A DNA stretch of 64,000 nt from a virus, in the IMG/VR virus record IMGVR_UViG_3300033156_000312, positions 18,046-82,045 of that record; one strand, written 5' to 3'. Positions within the stretch are counted from its first letter, which is position 1. Every line of letters begins with the position of its first letter. Positions 979-63,731 of the stretch are shown one piece after another. The position numbers were made by a program, and so were the translations under genes. The notes below the pieces were generated by a model. That model worked only from the letters and a program-made list of their open reading frames with translations. It was not told the DNA's origin and did not search any database.

Positions 979-2868
979 ATGCAATATAAACAAATAATTC
1001 TATCAAAGCTTATTGACTATTTAAAGTATAAAAAAATCAAATTGAGTCGAGGGCATATAAAGACTTTTTCTTGTCCTTTTTGTGGCAAGACAGCAACATT
1101 ATTACCAAACTCTCATTATGTAAATTGTTTTTTTTGTCGTCCTAAAGAAAATTTTGGAGAATATTTTACAGTTATAGATATTGCAAGAAAATTGGATAAA
1201 CCAGATGCTTCAGATGAAGAAATCTTACAATATCTTAAAGATATATTAAACATTAAAGTAATGACAAAACAAGATGAAGTAAAAGTAGAAGATATATTAA
1301 AGAAATATCAAGAATGGGGGTTCGATTTAGTTCCAATAGTTACTAATGGAAAAATTCCCGCAGAAAAAGAATGGACAAAGAAAACCCATAAAGATATAAA
1401 TGAATGGATGCGATGGATAAAAGACGGTCTTAACATAGGAGTTAAAACGGGAAAAGTAAGCAATATTATTGTAGTGGATATAGACCAAAAACCAATACCA
1501 AATGAAATCAAAAATTTATTAAGAGATGATAGCACTTTTATTCAAGAAACAACAAAGGGCTATCATTTATTTTATAAATATGACTCTGACTTACCAAAAA
1601 CTCGTATAGATGAAATCAAAATAGATATAGAGAATGATGGTGGGCAAGTTGTGATATATCCTTCGAGAATTAAAGATAAGGAAAGAAAAATTCAACAATT
1701 TGGAAAGATAGCAGAAATGCCCGAAGAATTAAAAGAATATCTAAAGAAACAAATGACCGTCCCTCGCAAAACTCAAAGTGAAAAGATAAGTGAAGATATA
1801 CAAACAGAAGATTTTAATTTAGGGGTATTGGGAGAAGGACAAAGAAATTCATCTTTAGTAAGAATAGGTGGAATTTTGAGAAAAGAACTTAATAAAAAAC
1901 AAACCGAGTATACTTTACATATGCTTAATAAAGTTTTATGTAAACGACCTCTCCCCGTCAAAGAAATGCGAGCTATGATAAATAGCTTAGATAAATATAC
2001 TCACTTTGATGAAAAAGAGTTGGCTCATAAAGTATTAGAATATTTGAGAGACATAGAAGAAGCTAATAGAAATGAAATTGCTATGGCAATAGTAGGAACT
2101 AATCGAGGAGAGGAAAAAAAGAGAATAGATAAAGCTCTACAATATTTGGTTAAAGAAAGATATGTATCTAAAATAGGGAGAAGTTATTCCATTCGAAAAA
2201 AAGTAGAATGGAAAGAAACTTTGATTAATATAGGAGTTCCGATTGATTTTCAAATGCCATATTTTTATGATTTAATGCACTTTCATTTTGGAGATTTAAT
2301 TATTATCGGGTCAAGAAACGCTACAGGAAAAACTCATATAGCCATGAATATAGTTAAACAATTAGTTGAACAGAAAATTACTCCTTATTATCTTTCTCTT
2401 GAAGGTGGTTCAAGATGGGCAAAAATAGCACTACAACTCGGATTAAAAGAAAGAGATTTTAAGTGGGAAGAAACTTCTAATCCTAATAATGTAGAATTAG
2501 AACAAAATGCTATTACTATAATTGATTGGTTATGTCCAAAAAGTTATGCAGAAACAGATAAAATATTACAAAACTTAAATGATAAAGTGCGTGAAACTAA
2601 AGGAATATTAATTGTTTTTGTTCAGTTACGAGATAATAACGAATGGTTAGCTAAAGATTTAATAAAACAATTCCCTGCTTTTGCTTGTAGATATATTTAT
2701 GATAATGAAGATAGTGGAGAATATGGCAAATTTAAAATAGACAAATTAAGAGATGCTAAAATACGTATTAAAAGTTATGAATTACCAGCATATTATAATT
2801 GGGAAACTAAAGAACTCATATTAGTTTCAGAATTAGAACAAAAAAAGAAATTAGAAAATGAAGAATAA
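979..2868 (+). CDS. Primase-helicase (Zn finger, PrimPol and RecA-like ATPase)
   Basis: A 629-aa replication protein with several domains in order. Residues 32-53 carry CPFC and CFFC, a zinc finger like those of DnaG-type primases. Residues about 110-270 resemble a PrimPol (primase-polymerase) domain: VVDID near 165-169 supplies acidic metal ligands, TTKGYHLFY near 192-198 gives the conserved histidine, and DGGQVVIYPS follows. GEGQRNSSLVRIGGILRK resembles the primase C-terminal helical segment. A winged-helix-like stretch and then a RecA/DnaB-type P-loop GSRNATGKT (444-452) complete the protein. It probably makes primers and unwinds DNA at the phage fork, partnering the family B polymerase at 8614. 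The end overlaps the next gene by 11 bases. Confidence 0.88.
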   Translation: MQYKQIILSKLIDYLKYKKIKLSRGHIKTFSCPFCGKTATLLPNSHYVNCFFCRPKENFGEYFTVIDIARKLDKPDASDEEILQYLKDILNIKVMTKQDEVKVEDILKKYQEWGFDLVPIVTNGKIPAEKEWTKKTHKDINEWMRWIKDGLNIGVKTGKVSNIIVVDIDQKPIPNEIKNLLRDDSTFIQETTKGYHLFYKYDSDLPKTRIDEIKIDIENDGGQVVIYPSRIKDKERKIQQFGKIAEMPEELKEYLKKQMTVPRKTQSEKISEDIQTEDFNLGVLGEGQRNSSLVRIGGILRKELNKKQTEYTLHMLNKVLCKRPLPVKEMRAMINSLDKYTHFDEKELAHKVLEYLRDIEEANRNEIAMAIVGTNRGEEKKRIDKALQYLVKERYVSKIGRSYSIRKKVEWKETLINIGVPIDFQMPYFYDLMHFHFGDLIIIGSRNATGKTHIAMNIVKQLVEQKITPYYLSLEGGSRWAKIALQLGLKERDFKWEETSNPNNVELEQNAITIIDWLCPKSYAETDKILQNLNDKVRETKGILIVFVQLRDNNEWLAKDLIKQFPAFACRYIYDNEDSGEYGKFKIDKLRDAKIRIKSYELPAYYNWETKELILVSELEQKKKLENEE

Positions 2869-3769
2869 AAAATTAAATCAATATATAATATCAGCTAAAA
2901 AGTTAATCAACATGCCTTATAATCAATTAAATTTAGCTAATTACAAGAAAAAATTTGTTAATATTTATAAATTAAAAAATATACACTTTATAAATACTTC
3001 TTCTAAAAAACCTATTAAATTAATGTCTGGACAATCTAAAAATGCAGGTATTATTGCTTCTTCAATTCCATCTTCCAAAAGAAATATTTATTTAATAGGT
3101 AAGGGGATTTTATTTGATGCAGGAGGATATGATTTAAAATCTTCTGGAAAAATGAATAATATGAAATGTGATATGAGCGGAATGGCAATAGCATTTGCTG
3201 TATCTTCTTATTTTAAAAATAATAATGTAATCGCTTATTGTCCTGTCGCTACAAATTTTATACATAATAACCAAATTACTCCTGGCGATTACATCAAGAT
3301 AGGAAATAAAACTGTAGAAATAACAAATACAGATGCAGAAGGTAGATTAATTTTAGCTGAAGCATTAAGTCAACTTACTGTTGAAAAGAATGATATAATT
3401 ATAACAATAGCTACTTTAACAGGAGTATGTGCTTATGCTATTGGAGAAAAAGCAACCGCTTTTATGACTCCAACTAAAGAATTTACTCATAAATACAAAC
3501 TTGCGAGCAAAAAAGCAAACGAACTTGCTTGGAGACTTCCATTATGGGACTATTTACAAAAATCTTTTAATAAAAAAAGAATAACGAATACTTCTAAGGA
3601 AAAATGTGGGACTATTATGGGGGGAATGTTCCTAAAACAATTTATTCCAAACCCCAAAAATTGGATTCATCTCGATATAGCTTATTCGGCTTATGATAAC
3701 AAAAAAAATAAGGCGACTGGAGAACCTATAATGAGTTTAGTTTACTTTGTTGAGGAGTTATTGAAATGA
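2858..3769 (+). CDS. M17 family leucine aminopeptidase homologue
   Basis: A 303-aa protein matching the catalytic domain of leucine aminopeptidase (PepA, family M17). The two-metal site is complete: K82 and D87 in KGILFDAGG, K94, D105 in KCDMSG, and D159/E161/R163 in NTDAEGRL. The spacings K-D (5), K-K (12) and D-D (18) match those remembered for PepA. Later segments ATLTG, WRLPLWDY, GGMFLKQF, WIHLDIA and ATGEP also follow the family order. The N-terminal domain is only about 70 residues, far shorter than in cellular enzymes (about 480-500 aa in total). It overlaps the primase-helicase (11 bases) and the resolvase (4 bases). Its phage role is unknown; peptide turnover, protein maturation or a PepA-like DNA role are possible. 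Confidence 0.88.
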   Translation: MKNKKLNQYIISAKKLINMPYNQLNLANYKKKFVNIYKLKNIHFINTSSKKPIKLMSGQSKNAGIIASSIPSSKRNIYLIGKGILFDAGGYDLKSSGKMNNMKCDMSGMAIAFAVSSYFKNNNVIAYCPVATNFIHNNQITPGDYIKIGNKTVEITNTDAEGRLILAEALSQLTVEKNDIIITIATLTGVCAYAIGEKATAFMTPTKEFTHKYKLASKKANELAWRLPLWDYLQKSFNKKRITNTSKEKCGTIMGGMFLKQFIPNPKNWIHLDIAYSAYDNKKNKATGEPIMSLVYFVEELLK

Positions 3770-16966: not shown

Positions 16967-17334
16967 TTTTGTATCACCCATCAGACCGAAAATTCAATAT
17001 TGTAAAAGTAAAATATTTTGGAGAACATTATTATACTTTAAATGACATGAAAATATCTCCAGTTCCTCGAACTTTTTGGTATAACGAATTACCGATTTCA
17101 GAAAATAGATTTAAATCATCTCAATTTATTTATGTAGCAAAAGTGAATAAAAAACGGATTTATGATTTAAGAAAAGATAAAAATAACTTATTAGAGAAAT
17201 TTAGATATAGAGGATTACATGGGCTTTTATTATATTTGAAGAAAAGGTATTTAGGTGTTATATATCAAGTGCAAGAATTTAATTTAGTCGCAATTTTTAA
17301 AGATATAAAACCTATAAGGAGAATAGAAAAATGA
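16963..17334 (+). CDS. Hypothetical protein
   Basis: A 123-aa basic protein with many Tyr and Phe residues. The ATG at 16963 overlaps the preceding stop and is preferred to a TTG three codons upstream. It is coupled by a 4-base overlap to the cytidylyltransferase fusion, so it may belong to the modification operon. No motif is recognised. Confidence 0.6.
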   Translation: MILYHPSDRKFNIVKVKYFGEHYYTLNDMKISPVPRTFWYNELPISENRFKSSQFIYVAKVNKKRIYDLRKDKNNLLEKFRYRGLHGLLLYLKKRYLGVIYQVQEFNLVAIFKDIKPIRRIEK

Positions 17335-18341
17335 AAAATATTGTTTATGCCCCAGGAGTTTTCGATATGCTTCATATTGGACATATTCAATATCTTCAAA
17401 AAGCAAAAACTCAAGGAGATTATTTAATTGTAGGAGTGCAAAGTGATAAAGGTGTAGAATCTATGAAAGGAACGAAACCTATTCTATCTGAGAATATAAG
17501 AATGCAAACAATAAAAGCTTTAGAATGTGTAGATGATGCTTTTATATATGAAGATACTAATTATATATACCATGCAAAAAGAGCAAATGCTAAAATATTT
17601 TGTTTATCTACTCAACATAAAGAAGCTGAACGTTTTAAAGAATTAGTCAAATATATGAGAGACATAGGAGGGAAAATAGTATATATCTCTCATATGAAAG
17701 GTATATCTTCTACTGCGATTAAAGATAAAGTTAAAAATGAATGGAAATCTGTTTGGGAAAGAGTCGCCTCTTCTGATAAAAATGATATAGAAGTAAATGG
17801 AGGATATAATCAAATAGGAGAAAAAAATGCTGTTAAATTAGCATTATACTTAACTGATAAATTTGCAATTAGACAAGAAGATAAAGTTTTAGATTATGGG
17901 TGTGGAAGTGGAATTATTTTACAGAAATTAAGATGTCAAAAATATGGTATAGATATATCTCCCAGCATGATAGAAAGAGCTATCAAAAATAATCCATCTG
18001 GACTTTTTGCTGTTGGAGATGATATAATAATGAGAGGACATTATAATTATATTATTTGTCATGGCACTGTTCAATATTTCTCTAATACTGTTTACGCTTC
18101 TCATATTTTTTTAGAGATGAAGCGTTATGCAGACTGTGTAATTATTTGTGATATTCCTGACGAAGCAAAAAAAGAACAACGAGAGAGGTATAGAAGAGAA
18201 CGAGGAATGAATTCTTATCCCCCTCATTTATATTATTCTCGTGAGTTTTTTAGAAATTTAGATTTTGAAACTTTTGACAATGAAATATCGATAACAAATA
18301 ATAAAAATTACGGTTTTTATGCAGTGTGGAGACGAAAATGA
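17331..18341 (+). CDS. Cytidylyltransferase-methyltransferase fusion
   Basis: A 336-aa two-domain enzyme. Residues 1-135 are a cytidylyltransferase of the TagD/RfaE/ECT type: GVFDMLHIGHIQYLQKAK carries HxGH, and GISSTAIKDKV is the second nucleotide-binding motif. It would join CTP to a phosphorylated alcohol or sugar. From about residue 175 a Rossmann methyltransferase follows, with SAM motif VLDYGCGSG, GIDISPSMIERA and a late Tyr/Arg-rich end. The pairing suggests a CDP-activated, N- or O-methylated group such as a choline-like head group. A LicD-like transferase 2.6 kb downstream could use it. Neither substrate is shown by the sequence. Confidence 0.83.
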   Translation: MKNIVYAPGVFDMLHIGHIQYLQKAKTQGDYLIVGVQSDKGVESMKGTKPILSENIRMQTIKALECVDDAFIYEDTNYIYHAKRANAKIFCLSTQHKEAERFKELVKYMRDIGGKIVYISHMKGISSTAIKDKVKNEWKSVWERVASSDKNDIEVNGGYNQIGEKNAVKLALYLTDKFAIRQEDKVLDYGCGSGIILQKLRCQKYGIDISPSMIERAIKNNPSGLFAVGDDIIMRGHYNYIICHGTVQYFSNTVYASHIFLEMKRYADCVIICDIPDEAKKEQRERYRRERGMNSYPPHLYYSREFFRNLDFETFDNEISITNNKNYGFYAVWRRK

Positions 18342-57804: not shown

Positions 57805-59424
57805 TTAAAAGTCTGTTCCCAATCCCCAACTCGAATTTGTGGGAGGGATGTCTTCAAAATCTCTGATTTTCCAAATTATTATTGCCAACACACGAAAAGC
57901 GTCAAATAAATGGTCTCCTATACCACTTGGACATATATACATCTTTCGTGTTCCAGATATTTTAGAGATAACGGCATTGAGTTGTTTATCGAATCTATAG
58001 TCAAGAGGAATTCTGAATTTTTTATCATAGAGAAGTTTTTTTAATCTTCTCACAGACCACTCTGACATATATTCAGTTTTATAAACAGGTTTTCCGTTTT
58101 TGAAAACTATATTATCTTCTTCATCTTTTTCAAAACCAACATTAACTTTCATTGTGCCTGCATAACGAATAACGTGTTTTACTCCATAAATTTTTTCAAA
58201 ATCATCTGCGAGCGTTCTTCCAAGAGCTTCTCCACATTCTACCCCTATAATATTAGCTTGAACGCTATCTATGATATATTTAAAAATTTCAAGTTGTTCA
58301 TCATGCTTTAGATTATAAAGAGTAATATTATATAAATAATTGTATATTTCTTTTACTTCTGATATTACAATAATTTCAGTTCCGCCTGCACCATCTCCAA
58401 CATCAGCACATACAAAAATCTGATTAGCGTTTTTTGGTCTCTCTACAACTATCAAGTCTCTAAATCTCTTATATCTTGTTTTAGGAATCTCAAATCGCTT
58501 GATGTCCTTTTTTTCAATGTAACATTCTCGAACTCTATCCATATCGAATTCCGAGACACCTTCTTCAACTATCTCGCCCTCTACAAAAATACGATAATCA
58601 ATAGAATCTTCTCCACCGTAATGCTCTACTCTGTCTTTTTTTTCTTCTTTGTCCCAATGAGGATTGACATATTGAGGAAGATTAATAACTTTGCCTCGAT
58701 TTTTTAAATCATAGAACATCTGCCCAGCAGGCATATATTTTGTAAAATTAGTCATACCTGCAAATCGTTCTATGACTCCAAGCTCTGAAGCAGATTCTTT
58801 TCGTTTATTAAAAACTTCCTCTGTTTCAAAACTCATTTCTTCACCCCAGAGTTTCTTAAAGTGCTTTTGAAAGAACTGGTCGCCTGGGTCTTTTTTGGCT
58901 TTCAGATTCATATTTACGCCGTCAAGCATCCATCCATTCTTTGCTTCTATATGATAATTAGGATAAGTTCTAATCTGTCCCTGTCTCCATTGTTTAAGAA
59001 TAGGATGCTTATCTATCCCGTGTTTTATAAAGTCTAATACTCCACGTAAATGAATTAAGTCCATAGAGGTGAATCCACAAGGATAACCATCGTCATGAAG
59101 CATAGATAGAGGAACATCTAACTTCTCCGTGCACAGTGTCTTTCCATATTTACGGCCACCAAAATTATATACATCTGCTACATTTTTTCTTAATCGAAAT
59201 TCTTGTTTTTTAGAAAGACTGTAATGTTTTGCGATTCCTTCGAAATCAATTAATGATTCAAATGAAATCATTGGTAATTGATAATTTCTTAATCGCCCAA
59301 ATACATCTTCACGAAATTCAGAAATATTATCAAAATTAGAAAAAAGACATTCAATCAGACATACTGGATTATGCCATGCTTTCATGAAAGACAAATTTTC
59401 TTCATTGATTTTTTCTAAAACCAT
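57805..59424 (-). CDS. terL: Terminase large subunit
   Basis: A 539-aa packaging motor. Walker A is GGRKYGKT (about residues 94-101), and the Walker B region is LWGEEMSFE. The C-terminal RNase H-like nuclease has ADVGDGAGG, VECGEALGR and DHLFDAFR with its acidic residues. It pumps DNA into the prohead and cuts concatemers. The portal gene follows and a putative small subunit precedes it. Confidence 0.88.
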   Translation of the reverse strand: MVLEKINEENLSFMKAWHNPVCLIECLFSNFDNISEFREDVFGRLRNYQLPMISFESLIDFEGIAKHYSLSKKQEFRLRKNVADVYNFGGRKYGKTLCTEKLDVPLSMLHDDGYPCGFTSMDLIHLRGVLDFIKHGIDKHPILKQWRQGQIRTYPNYHIEAKNGWMLDGVNMNLKAKKDPGDQFFQKHFKKLWGEEMSFETEEVFNKRKESASELGVIERFAGMTNFTKYMPAGQMFYDLKNRGKVINLPQYVNPHWDKEEKKDRVEHYGGEDSIDYRIFVEGEIVEEGVSEFDMDRVRECYIEKKDIKRFEIPKTRYKRFRDLIVVERPKNANQIFVCADVGDGAGGTEIIVISEVKEIYNYLYNITLYNLKHDEQLEIFKYIIDSVQANIIGVECGEALGRTLADDFEKIYGVKHVIRYAGTMKVNVGFEKDEEDNIVFKNGKPVYKTEYMSEWSVRRLKKLLYDKKFRIPLDYRFDKQLNAVISKISGTRKMYICPSGIGDHLFDAFRVLAIIIWKIRDFEDIPPTNSSWGLGTDF

Positions 59425-59468: not shown

Positions 59469-60125
59469 TTACTCTTCTGGAAAAATCTTTTTCTCTAACC
59501 AAGTAATGTAATCGATAGGAGTGCCAAGCACATCCGCAACTTCTTTCTTCGTGAGTTTCCCCTCTTTATATAATTTCCAAAGGGCTTCATTCGCCAAAAA
59601 TCTGTCTTTGAAGAAAGTATGTTTCTGTGCCTCATAAACATCACTTTTAATACGTAACATAATAAGTTTTGAACAATGTGGACACGGAAATGTTCGAGAT
59701 GCTGAATTTTCGTCTAACCATTTCTGAAACTTTCTCTTGAGAATTTGTATATGATTGAAAGCATCATCTACGTTCTTGTCTTCAAATAAACCTAATTTTT
59801 CCCTTAATGTCAATATTTGTTGTAAATTCTGGTCGAGAGCATAGGTAAGGGATTTAGGAGCTACATCTGTTTTTTTATCTGACCCTTTAGCTCTCGCTTT
59901 TTTATAGTCTGTTTCTATTTTTTCTATTTTCTTCTTATATCTCTCTTGTAGCATTTCCCTGAATACTAATTCAGACAAGAGAGTTAAATCGGCAAGAGAT
60001 TCTATGTGATATTTTTCTTTATATTGCTCAAATCTTTTTTTGCCTTTAAATTTCTCTCCTCTATTTAATCCTATACCTTCAAATTCATAGCTTCCTGCTT
60101 TAGATATGTTATTTTTTTCGTTCAT
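59469..60125 (-). CDS. Putative terminase small subunit / DNA-binding protein
   Basis: A 218-aa protein starting at ATG 60125, which follows ggtaaggaat; the same frame is open to 60176 but that part overlaps a terminator hairpin. It has charged helices (residues about 70-110), a CPHC half-ribbon and a C-terminal helix-turn-helix (KEGKLTKKEVADVLGTPIDY). Directly before terL, this fits a small terminase that recognises packaging sites. Confidence 0.68.
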   Translation of the reverse strand: MNEKNNISKAGSYEFEGIGLNRGEKFKGKKRFEQYKEKYHIESLADLTLLSELVFREMLQERYKKKIEKIETDYKKARAKGSDKKTDVAPKSLTYALDQNLQQILTLREKLGLFEDKNVDDAFNHIQILKRKFQKWLDENSASRTFPCPHCSKLIMLRIKSDVYEAQKHTFFKDRFLANEALWKLYKEGKLTKKEVADVLGTPIDYITWLEKKIFPEE

Positions 60126-60162
60126 ATAATTCCTTACCAATAAAGAGGTTACAGTTAGTGAA

Positions 60163-60190
60163 TCTGAAAAAACCACTCAATAGAGTGGTT
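60163..60190 (-). terminator. Rho-independent terminator in the terminase leader
   Basis: On the minus strand aaccactc-tatt-gagtggtt is an 8-base perfect stem followed by TTTTTT. It lies about 75-100 bases after the promoter at 60270-60299 and just before the terminase genes. It would release a short leader RNA unless passed by antitermination. Confidence 0.75.
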
Positions 60191-60269: not shown

Positions 60270-60299
60270 AGTATATCATATAAGTATAGGCACTGTCAA
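60270..60299 (-). promoter_or_regulatory. Sigma70-type promoter P2 (minus strand)
   Basis: On the minus strand TTGACA (60299-60294) and TATACT (60275-60270) are separated by 18 bases. The surrounding 65 bases closely match promoter P1 at 62681-62710, including gaaaaaga and cttgtcttac upstream. Flanking cctctact and agtatagg form an imperfect dyad. It drives transcription into the terminase and virion genes. Confidence 0.82.
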
Positions 60300-60316: not shown

Positions 60317-60361
60317 TTCAAAAAAAATAAGAGGAGTTAGTTTTACCTAACCCCTCTTATT
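60317..60361 (-). terminator. Strong Rho-independent terminator
   Basis: On the minus strand aataagaggggttag pairs with ctaactcctcttatt (14 of 15 bases) around a 6-base loop and is followed by a run of T. It closes the 60389-62575 operon immediately before promoter P2. Confidence 0.88.
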
Positions 60362-60388: not shown

Positions 60389-60568
60389 TTATCTGAAAAT
60401 TTTTCCAAAAATTCCTTTAACTTCTTCATAAAGCCACTCTATAAACTGTCTTATATATTCAATCGCTTTTCCTATATACTCGACGGCTTTTTCGAGATAA
60501 CCTATAATTTTTTCGAGCATTTCTCTGGAAAATAACTCTCGAAGAAATTCTTTTAATTTATCAAGCAT
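60389..60568 (-). CDS. Amphipathic helical peptide
   Basis: A 59-aa peptide with a strong site (ggaggaa). It is almost one long amphipathic helix, with heptad-like LEKAVEYIGKAIEYIRQFIE and an aromatic end (WLYEEVKGIFGKIFR). It lies just after the YiiX-like hydrolase gene in the same operon. Amphipathic holin-like, membrane-active or antiholin peptides can look like this; the role is unproven. Confidence 0.65.
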   Translation of the reverse strand: MLDKLKEFLRELFSREMLEKIIGYLEKAVEYIGKAIEYIRQFIEWLYEEVKGIFGKIFR

Positions 60569-60603: not shown

Positions 60604-61257
60604 CTACTTAGTCTTACTATACGAACAATTTAAAATTTTTACAATAGTGCGTAATTTCTTGCTTCTATATAAATCCCAAGGAGTTACAAATCCTGGAGTC
60701 GTTGCTGACCAGAGAGATTCAACATGATACAAATAAGCCAAATGCACTAATTCTGAACAAATAAACTTTATCTTGCTATCCCAAGGATTTTGCCAAATTC
60801 TTTTGATAAAATATTTAAGTCTGGGGTTTTCTATGAGTTCAAGTAAAAAGTATCTACCGAGAATAGCAAATGCTTGTCCCCAATCATAAGGATGTCCATC
60901 TTGCTTCAATAGCCAACGTTCCATTCTGACACGTTTCCAATGTTCAAAAGCTCCTCGATACCTTTTGATAACAATATTTGCTTTCGGATGTTTTGCCCAT
61001 AATCTTAATGGCTTAATTTTTACACCCGTAAAAGCAGATTGAATTATTTTACATTCATTTATGTCGTTATGAGTTTCAATAACTATACCTATATGATTGG
61101 GCACGAAACGGTCTTCTGGATGTTTGCCTCCATTTTCTACAATTCTAATGGCTCGACCTAATATATTCCATGAAGACCTTCCATCAATAAAGACAATATC
61201 ACCAAATTGAAGCTTCTGATGTATGCTTTCAGTCCATTCGATTTTTCTTTCGTGCAT
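60604..61257 (-). CDS. YiiX/NlpC-P60-like papain-fold hydrolase
   Basis: A 217-aa protein. KLQFGDIVFIDGRSSWNILG, VPNHIGIVIETH (catalytic His) and KIKFICSELVHLAY (catalytic Cys) show the permuted papain order also seen in the protein at 24424. It is larger and has no signal peptide. In phages such enzymes are candidate lysins or modifiers of envelope peptides or lipids. It follows the papain-like gene with a 1-base gap. Confidence 0.78.
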   Translation of the reverse strand: MHERKIEWTESIHQKLQFGDIVFIDGRSSWNILGRAIRIVENGGKHPEDRFVPNHIGIVIETHNDINECKIIQSAFTGVKIKPLRLWAKHPKANIVIKRYRGAFEHWKRVRMERWLLKQDGHPYDWGQAFAILGRYFLLELIENPRLKYFIKRIWQNPWDSKIKFICSELVHLAYLYHVESLWSATTPGFVTPWDLYRSKKLRTIVKILNCSYSKTK

Positions 61258-61258
61258 A

Positions 61259-62104
61259 TTACACTAAACCTTTTTTTCTAAGTTTTCTTCTCTTTCTTAA
61301 AGTAAGATTCGCAACTCGAAGTATAATAGTATTCTTAAATTCTTCAGGGTCATCAATGTCTATCATTTGGATAGCATCCATTAATGTGCGACGCATTTCC
61401 TTGTATGAAAGAAAACCATATCCATTTTGACCCCAACCTGTTCCCCAAGAATTTTTGAACTTATATAATTTTGTTTCATCATCATAACCTACAAGAGCTA
61501 TAGCATGTCCTCCAAGATACCCTTGAATTCTCTCACACCAATTAGCGTCAGGGATATGACCATTTTTCTGTCTATACCAATTTCTATATACTAAAACTCC
61601 AATATGAAGAGGCCCAAATTTTACTAATGAAGCTTTCAGTTCCTTTTCATTTGTAATTCTAACATATACAGGTTCTATCTTATACTTTAAAGCGTTATGA
61701 TAAGCTCCTGAATATGCTTGTCTTGGCTTGTTTGCTTCATAAGGCCAAAATTTTTCTTCACAAATTCCTTTATCAACTAATACTTTAGCGACAGCTTTTA
61801 AAGTAGTTCCTTCTTTATGTCCGCTGATTTTTTTCGCTTCTTCATATAAAAAACGTTCTGATAAATCTATATATCTATCATAATCATGAAATTCCATCCA
61901 CTCTTTAATTGCTGTTCCTGCAAAACCTGCACATGCCCCTTCTCCGCCTTGATTTCTAACTTCAGACATTTCAGCAGTATAATCTATTTTACTTGGCAAT
62001 TTATCTATAATATCACTAACAAGTGTTGTTACCAAATAGTCTCTCTTGTCAAATGGGGATTTATATAATCCCAATCGGCTTTGTAAATACTTGGTTTTTC
62101 TCAT
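61259..62104 (-). CDS. Papain-like (C1A) cysteine protease
   Basis: A 281-aa protease of the papain fold. EVRNQGGEGACAGFAGTAI holds the oxyanion Gln and catalytic Cys, GGHAIALVGYDDE the catalytic His, and FKNSWGTGWGQNGYGFLSY the catalytic Asn and the usual ending. No secretion signal is visible. A phage-encoded C1A enzyme is uncommon; it could cut envelope peptides at lysis or degrade host proteins. Its start overlaps the small basic protein stop by 4 bases. Confidence 0.88.
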   Translation of the reverse strand: MRKTKYLQSRLGLYKSPFDKRDYLVTTLVSDIIDKLPSKIDYTAEMSEVRNQGGEGACAGFAGTAIKEWMEFHDYDRYIDLSERFLYEEAKKISGHKEGTTLKAVAKVLVDKGICEEKFWPYEANKPRQAYSGAYHNALKYKIEPVYVRITNEKELKASLVKFGPLHIGVLVYRNWYRQKNGHIPDANWCERIQGYLGGHAIALVGYDDETKLYKFKNSWGTGWGQNGYGFLSYKEMRRTLMDAIQMIDIDDPEEFKNTIILRVANLTLRKRRKLRKKGLV

Positions 62105-62319
62105 TCTTCTTTATTCTCCTCAATTGGAGAAGTCGGAGTTAATGATTTCTCCTCTTTCTTTTCTTTCTTGAATTTGTATTTGATTATCTTCTCTTTAGGT
62201 AGAGCGAAAAGAGATGGGAAAGATTTGCCTTTCTCACGAAGAGTTTTAAATCTCTCCCAACGCTTACGCACTGTTCTATGGTCATTATTATTGCTTTTAA
62301 AGGAAGGATGTATAGACAT
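62101..62319 (-). CDS. Small basic protein, PVC-type
   Basis: A 72-aa, highly charged basic protein. MSIHPSFKSNNNDHRTVRKR then ERFKTLREKGK and ALPKEKIIKYKFKKEKK resemble the small basic protein family (recalled as TIGR04137) of Verrucomicrobia, Chlamydiae, Planctomycetes and Omnitrophota. That family begins MSxHxS and has an R..ER...L...G..... LPK plan. The cellular role is not known. Being in a phage operon with envelope hydrolases is unexpected and hints at the host lineage. The match is from memory and not computed. Confidence 0.7.
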   Translation of the reverse strand: MSIHPSFKSNNNDHRTVRKRWERFKTLREKGKSFPSLFALPKEKIIKYKFKKEKKEEKSLTPTSPIEENKEE

Positions 62320-62320
62320 A

Positions 62321-62452
62321 TTACTTTCTCTTGCGTTTATTTGGAATAGACCTCAAAGCAAGATATTTAATCTTACGAAATAGCTTAATAGCATTCCATG
62401 TAGTTTTATCAAGTTTTAAAGCTCTATAAAATTTGTTTTTTCCATCTCTCAT
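62321..62452 (-). CDS. Tiny basic protein
   Basis: A 43-aa basic peptide (RDGKNKFYRALKLDKTTWNA, RKIKYLALRSIPNKRKRK) between the membrane peptide and the small basic protein. The start is taken at 62452, with only a weak ribosome site. Its reality rests on the tight spacing (1 base to the next gene). Confidence 0.5.
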   Translation of the reverse strand: MRDGKNKFYRALKLDKTTWNAIKLFRKIKYLALRSIPNKRKRK

Positions 62453-62455
62453 ATA

Positions 62456-62575
62456 TTACCTATAAGGTTTACTTACAGCCCATATCAGCACAGGAATCCA
62501 AAAGACAACTAATACAGGGCATAAAGCTGTTAAAATACTTGCTACCCATATTAACAATATTTTTAGTATCTGCAT
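62456..62575 (-). CDS. Single-span membrane peptide
   Basis: A 39-aa hydrophobic peptide (ILKILLIWVASILTALCPVL, WIPVLIWAVSKPYR), first in the operon driven by P1. Almost the whole length is apolar, enough for one or two membrane passes, and the end is basic. It is holin-like in style, but too short to classify. Confidence 0.5.
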   Translation of the reverse strand: MQILKILLIWVASILTALCPVLVVFWIPVLIWAVSKPYR

Positions 62576-62669
62576 ATTATCACTATTCTTTTGTTAAGAG
62601 CAGTTAGGGAATAGTAATAGTTTTCTATTGGACATACACCAACGTTCTCACCCTCTTTTATCATCATCT

Positions 62670-62710
62670 GCTCTACTATAAGTATATCACATAGAGTAGA
62701 GCAGTGTCAA
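62670..62710 (-). promoter_or_regulatory. Sigma70-type promoter P1 with dyad operator (minus strand)
   Basis: On the minus strand TTGACA (62710-62705) and TATACT (62686-62681) are 18 bases apart. A perfect 8-base inverted repeat, gctctact (62670-62677) and agtagagc (62695-62702), brackets the -10 region, as an operator would. P2 at 60270-60299 is a near copy. It drives the operon ending at the 60317-60361 terminator. Confidence 0.82.
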
Positions 62711-63110
62711 GTAAGACAAGGGTCTTTTTCAAAAAAATTTTTGGCTACGCCACCACTCTACTCTCTACTGTATCAAAGTAGCTACTTTTGACCCTTCGGG
62801 TCAGTTCCACTCTTTATTGTAGCGTATACCATAGTGATAATATTCTTAATAAACTCACTTCAATACCGATAGCCATAATTGAAGAAATAGAGCATTTATT
62901 TTAATAATCGAAACCATTATTTACATTTCGTAGTAGTTATCATAGATAGTGATAATCTTATCTATAATAGTAACCCTATATTGTTGTCAGAAAAAATGTA
63001 TAGTTTTTCTGATAGAAATGTTTCATTTTATAGGATAGTATACACGATTACTGTATAATAAATGCACGATTAAGTCAGTAAATGTCATAATATATAGCGA
63101 ATTTCAGGTT

Positions 63111-63158
63111 AAGTCCTTATTGTAAAAGGACTTAGCTGGAAAATTGATGATTTCCAGC
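63111..63158. repeat. Twin adjacent hairpins
   Basis: Two perfect 8-base stems stand back to back: aagtcctt/aaggactt with a 7-base loop, then gctggaaa/tttccagc with an 8-base loop. No T run follows on either strand, so a terminator is unlikely. A structured RNA or origin element is possible. Confidence 0.7.
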
Positions 63159-63191
63159 GTTAGAAAGAGTGTTTTGGAGCTGTGAGATACA

Positions 63192-63260
63192 GCGACTTAG
63201 AGCATAGATAGGGCGACTTAGACATAGGTTAGGACGAGATAGGACGACAATAGAGCTACT
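63192..63260. repeat. Iteron-like direct repeats
   Basis: The 20-21 base unit gcgacttaga-cata-agg occurs twice in a row, followed by two shorter derivatives beginning acgaga and acgaca and ending tagg or tag. Spacing near two helical turns is like iterons bound by replication proteins, but the copy number is low. Confidence 0.55.
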
Positions 63261-63410
63261 TATATAGCGATTTTTTCTGTTTGCTAATTAAGACCCTATA
63301 GTCATAACTATTGATAAATAAAGAAGTTAGATAAATTGATTAGAGTGATAATAGTATATTATCGCTTTATACAGCAATAAATGAGTGATATTGCATAAAA
63401 AAGCGACTGC

Positions 63411-63452
63411 ACTATTAACTATCTCGACATAGTATGACTATTAACTATTTCG
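63411..63452. repeat. Short direct repeat actattaactat[ct]tcg
   Basis: The 16-base motif occurs at 63411-63426 and 63437-63452, differing at one base, 26 bases apart. It lies in the same gene-free region as the iteron-like series and may be a protein-binding site. Confidence 0.55.
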
Positions 63453-63673
63453 TCTATTATAAGCAATAATTAAAAATGTTATTGTATTTGTTTTTTTATA
63501 ATGTATAGTATGATAATGTAATAATAGTATAGTATAACATAAAGATATTATAGATAGTTATTAACAGATAATTTTTAGTTAATAATGTATCAAAAGGTAG
63601 TTTTAAAGCGAATACTGAATTATTAACAAAATAACATTGTAAATGTTAGATAGACAAAAGATAGTTTTTTTAT

Positions 63674-63702
63674 TTGCTTTTAATGTTTTTTTATGCTATA
63701 CT
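63674..63702 (+). promoter_or_regulatory. Sigma70-type promoter (plus strand)
   Basis: TTGCTT (63674-63679) and TATACT (63697-63702) are separated by 17 bases, and a gene with aaaggaga follows at 63732. It opens rightward transcription away from the gene-free region. Confidence 0.72.
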
Positions 63703-63731
63703 TGTATTAGCAAACAGAAAGGAGATTTAAA

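Follow-up and report, generated by a model that had tools for sequence, protein, structure and literature searches.

Why would a phage carry a gene for a protein held to be unique to cells of the Planctomycetes-Verrucomicrobia-Chlamydiae (PVC) superphylum? Gupta and colleagues described this small basic protein, CT421.2, as exclusive to the PVC clade and without a homologue elsewhere (PMC3444138). The question is raised by an open reading frame (ORF) at 62319-62101 on the minus strand of the window, a stretch of 64,000 nucleotides that makes up bases 18046-82045 of the 82,045-base virus record IMGVR_UViG_3300033156_000312. The ORF is real, and its product of 72 amino acids (aa) is MSIHPSFKSNNNDHRTVRKRWERFKTLREKGKSFPSLFALPKEKIIKYKFKKEKKEEKSLTPTSPIEENKEE. 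A first-pass annotation, whose coordinates are correct, had assigned it to the CT421.2 family (TIGR04137) as a phage-borne member, and had read it as a clue to an Omnitrophota or other PVC host. We consider it probable, with real room for doubt, that the gene is an Omnitrophota-derived copy of the PVC protein that is selected in one phage lineage and acts at the host's nucleic-acid target.

The family assignment holds. TIGR04137 is the sole NCBIfam match of the 72-aa protein in hmmscan (E 1.3e-7, 31.4 bits), and the alignment covers positions 1-49 of the 50 in the hidden Markov model, a full-length match though one under the curated 50-bit cut-off. Two kin phages, described below, encode copies over this cut-off (G400, 53.2 bits; G401, 52.3 bits). 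A profile of cellular members only scores the window protein at 51.8 bits, and the top of 10,000 composition-preserving shuffles reached 12.2 bits; the match is thus not due to lysine content. TIGR04137 found nothing at E ≤ 0.01 in 14 control genomes, and at the looser E ≤ 10 gave weak matches in eight of them, all under the cut-off. The protein had no match in Pfam or PHROGs, and sequence and fold searches of the PDB returned no homologue and no usable match. We disregarded a uL13 match at E 0.087 as noise. Like the cellular members, the protein has the MS.HPS[L/F] N-terminus, R.V...ER, LPK and a lysine-rich tail, with 58% identity to members from Omnitrophota. It differs from them in being phage-borne, in the R that follows V and the E that follows LPK, and in the loss of two residues and of the tryptophan of GxW; its tail is short and composed of lysine and glutamate, whereas that of the Omnitrophota members is Ala/Pro-rich. 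Judged by its sequence, the protein is a divergent TIGR04137 homologue; the NCBIfam rule excludes membership, so we place it as a phage branch of the family.

Scanning genomes with only the 72-aa protein as query was unsuccessful, and cellular relatives were fetched with a consensus probe of the family pattern; similar probes were checked against TIGR04137. The titles of the 80 relatives were nearly all Omnitrophota, Verrucomicrobiota or Planctomycetota, with a few given just as 'bacterium'. The family is present in 345 of 384 Omnitrophota genomes (often incomplete), almost always as a single copy, and the window protein itself matches 259/285 Omnitrophota genomes (best E 1.7e-13, identity up to the 58% given above). 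The cellular gene lies near translation or RNA genes in one example genome in each of three phyla, the neighbours being a MetRS-C-like tRNA-binding protein and RNase III, ProRS and an rRNA pseudouridine synthase, and QueE and Der. The uL30 model (TIGR01308) was over its cut-off in 0/117 Omnitrophota genomes vs. 9/14 control genomes. This fits the proposal, made in a review that describes the PVC protein as RNA-binding, that it replaces ribosomal protein uL30 (PMC7203096).

The gene is not encoded by a PVC cell; it lies among phage genes in the 82-kb record. Genes for a tape measure, baseplate, family B DNA polymerase, Prim-Pol, RecA and an SbcC-like protein are present, and the record is that of a tailed phage without close cultured relatives. 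The probable terminase had no match in 50,697 phage records, the DNA polymerase had solely distant phage matches (<25% identity), and tblastn against cultured phages found no 72-aa homologue. Initial terminase and polymerase scans recovered nothing; the chosen patterns are not conserved. Seven IMG/VR kin were recovered with the terminase pair, and one of these, G393 (89 kb), encodes a TIGR04137 homologue of its own within a set of replication genes. Neither the 72-aa protein by itself nor the cellular consensus found a carrier in viral scans; only an alignment of the two phage proteins succeeded, leading to four more (L178-L181). The carriers are thus six IMG/VR records of one phage lineage, the window phage included, and a final viral scan found no additional ones. 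With the window phage, G393, G399 and G401 have both structural and replication genes in common, G400 the polymerase, Prim-Pol and RecA, and G398 (25 kb) 20 ORFs. Carriage by a phage is therefore not only borne out, but recurrent.

The phage copies occupy at least four distinct genomic positions. Those of L179-L181 are near homologues of the window's very first genes and the remaining copies are elsewhere; in G393, G399, G400 and G401 the gene is on the opposite strand, with replication/early genes around it. Because the places differ between kin, the gene has been moved or gained more than once. Near the site at which L180 and L181 carry their copy, and directly after the gene at 511-753, the window encodes a 73-aa very basic protein without a family (756-977; MARRKRMKHVKKNRSFGHRHKHNKK...).

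The phage also has a relative in an Omnitrophota genome. By DNA search, contig G201:C78 (5.1 kb) of an Omnitrophota metagenome-assembled genome (MAG) encodes a terminase 51% identical to that of the window over 527 aa, and the neighbouring genes are collinear. A terminase profile was positive in this MAG alone among 374 Omnitrophota genomes, and in 0/199 Planctomycetota. One small MAG contig is modest host evidence alone; it agrees with the affinity of the 72-aa protein, whose nearest cellular relatives are from the same phylum, and the earlier host clue is upheld on both counts. The short DNA matches in Omnitrophota genomes were for the most part due to chance in AT-rich sequence or to tail repeats, and we claim no spacer on them.

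The six phage copies, at 28-64% identity, all retain the family invariants M1, S6, R15, V17, E22 and R23; H4, L7, R20, L40 and K42 are nearly invariant, and every protein has an isoelectric point (pI) of 10-10.6. Two marks are common to all six. Where cellular members have a hydrophobic residue in V-[L/F]-K-R, the phage copies have R or N (V-[R/N]-K), and LPK is followed by E (LPKE). LPKE occurs once in 121 cellular sequences, in nearly all of which the residue after V is hydrophobic. Similar changes at both positions are found in G175 and G252, which are chromosomal Omnitrophota copies, so the two changes alone are no mark of lost function. In one pair, the cores of L180 and L181, the non-synonymous and synonymous rates (dN, dS) are 0.22 and 0.92 (dN/dS ~0.24). 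Recurrence in six records, with purifying selection seen in this one pair, is the pattern expected of a phage-encoded ribosomal protein. The phages grouped with G175 and G252 in a first tree (support 96/87); this grouping was lost after more of that order were added, and the phages then made up a separate clade (99/86). Once the two mark columns were removed, this clade was no longer recovered, yet was not rejected by the approximately unbiased test (p-AU 0.65). A single phage clade, dependent on those columns, is favoured by these alignments. The nearest cellular source is Omnitrophota, and the tree places no one donor lineage within the phylum.

What might such a protein do for a phage? The gene would have been captured from an Omnitrophota host and then maintained by selection within a single lineage of phages infecting that phylum. 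During infection, its product may bind the same host RNA or DNA target as the cellular copy, likeliest rRNA or the ribosome, and supplement or displace its cellular counterpart. Translation would thereby be kept or retuned in favour of phage mRNAs, in line with what has been proposed for bS21. Phage bS21 and bL12 incorporate into host ribosomes (PMC6375957), and the bS21 gene adjoins late/terminase genes in its phages (PMC9723584). As with these proteins (Mizuno 2019, PMC6375957; Chen 2022, PMC9723584), a host-derived small basic housekeeping gene is found in uncultured phages under purifying selection, and the window copy is likewise near late/terminase genes. The protein family is a different one, the PVC protein's place on the ribosome is a proposal, and the genomic place of the TIGR04137 gene varies between kin. 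By analogy with bS21, the phage copy most likely supplements or replaces the host protein. Carriage by the window phage and its five relatives suggests that they remodel a core machine of the host, possibly the ribosome, while infecting it. The first-pass annotation had supposed that the protein imitates a host factor or takes its place, possibly one linked to ribosomes or nucleic acids; we infer the same from the cellular gene neighbourhoods, the lack of uL30, the sign of purifying selection and the precedent of phage bS21. A more specific version, in which the PVC protein is a lineage-specific ribosomal protein standing in for uL30 and the modified phage form builds phage-tuned ribosomes, is tentative and on balance doubtful.

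This reading builds on the homology, the Omnitrophota source, the six-phage recurrence, the invariants, the low dN/dS of one pair and a transcription unit owned by the phage. Several points weigh against it. The ribosomal placement of the cellular protein is still hypothetical, and the AlphaFold models are weak (predicted local distance difference test, 74 and 64), with one helix and no uL30-like beta-alpha-beta-alpha-beta fold. The conserved GxW segment is missing from the window copy, whose gene is grouped with two peptidase genes, not with RNA genes. Kin G395 (90 kb) is without a TIGR04137 gene and none was found in the partial G394 (49 kb), so the gene is dispensable for the phage lineage.

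Absence from G395, with none found in partial G394, and the differing insertion places would also suit a neutral passenger, picked up by chance and of no benefit. Conservation largely refutes this: six phages have kept the invariants across divergent copies, dN/dS is low in the measured pair and the gene has its own phage promoter, leaving a passenger very improbable. An assembly chimera, with a bacterial gene misjoined to a phage contig, might be suspected of any single metagenomic record, but five other phage records have their own divergent copies. The gene also overlaps a phage gene start to stop on one side and is tightly packed on the other, and both flanking genes have kin in other phages; the chance of a chimera is negligible.

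More serious is the idea that the nucleic-acid binder, once captured, came to act on phage DNA, in condensation, packaging or protection, and not on the host RNA machinery. The cellular protein was reportedly described in Lagkouvardos 2014 as an unspecific binder of DNA and RNA; all six phage proteins are strongly basic and the window unit immediately precedes the terminase genes. Such a role sits less well with the opposite-strand location of four copies, amid replication/early genes, and with the retention of specific family invariants without drift to a generic lysine-rich peptide, and we regard it as unlikely. Still less likely is a dominant-negative copy that occupies the host site and shuts down host translation or nucleoid function. 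Both marks, present in all six copies, would be in keeping with this, and phage bS21 impaired in vitro translation by E. coli ribosomes (PMC6375957); the similar changes in the chromosomal G175 and G252 speak against it. We therefore prefer a selected copy working at the host's own target.

A supposedly PVC-specific family is thus repeatedly found in one phage lineage, and TIGR04137 in phages is a sequence marker for viruses of Omnitrophota. To our knowledge, there are almost no characterised phages of this phylum. The phage copies also provide naturally diverged forms of a protein whose role has been in question since 2012. If they are kept under selection, the protein is probably at a control point worth hijacking, and the ribosome (uL30 stand-in) hypothesis is directly testable. 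We found no report of a viral copy of the PVC protein in the open-access literature searched, which is not proof that none exists.

In the window, the 72-aa gene belongs to a six-gene unit that runs from promoter to terminator: the hydrophobic peptide, the 43-aa protein, the 72-aa protein, the C1 peptidase, the C92 amidase and the 59-aa ORF (Table 1). The last 4 bases of the 72-aa gene are shared with the start of the C1 peptidase gene. A third copy of the promoter is at L004:485-514, and similar TTGACA...TATACT sites exist in several kin. The 43-aa homologues in L162, L163 and L165 have no adjoining TIGR04137 gene; there the 43-aa gene is followed by a short cassette-free stretch and then the gene preceding the terminase. 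The 72-aa gene thus acts like cargo, as do the peptidases, whose cassette occurs in L159 unaccompanied by the 72-aa gene. The unit's promoter falls within ~1.1 kb of AT-rich, ORF-poor DNA between divergent gene blocks (62600-63730), which is rich in ATAGT-like repeats and is a candidate control or origin region.

Table 1. Features of the 72-aa gene's unit and its surroundings, in window coordinates.
Feature	Position	Strand	Remarks
Promoter TTGACA-18-TGATATACTTATAGTAGAG (TATACT, extended TG)	62681..62710	-	strong repeated phage promoter, heads unit
39-aa hydrophobic peptide	62456..62575	-	first ORF of unit
43-aa basic protein	62321..62452	-	just upstream of 72-aa gene; homologues in kin L162, L163, L165
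Phage homologue of PVC signature/small basic protein (TIGR04137)	62101..62319	-	72 aa, pI 10.0
Papain-family (C1) cysteine peptidase	61259..62104	-	kin L159 64%
C92 (YaeF/YiiX-type) permuted papain-like amidase	60604..61257	-	fifth gene of unit
59-aa ORF	60389..60568	-	last gene of unit
Intrinsic terminator, 15-bp stem and T tail	60326..60361	-	closes unit
Second copy of repeated promoter	60270..60299	-	precedes terminase/structural genes
Probable large terminase	57805..59424	-	motifs and position, no profile match; used to find kin phages and Omnitrophota MAG contig

Other genes of these phages were also noted. The window encodes an M17 leucyl aminopeptidase (2858-3769; Pfam E 1e-64), which is unusual phage cargo and has kin in L162 (56%) and L181 (71%), and a fusion of cytidylyltransferase-like and methyltransferase domains (17331-18341). 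A phosphoesterase at L004:10138-11718 is split by an intein with a LAGLIDADG domain, and the L180 and G393 polymerases look enlarged by inserts. Compared with window 59469-60176, L153:2352-4007 is interrupted by an insert of 330 aa. A BT1/MFS-family membrane transporter is encoded in the phage genome at L004:12263-13489 (Pfam BT1 E 9e-25).
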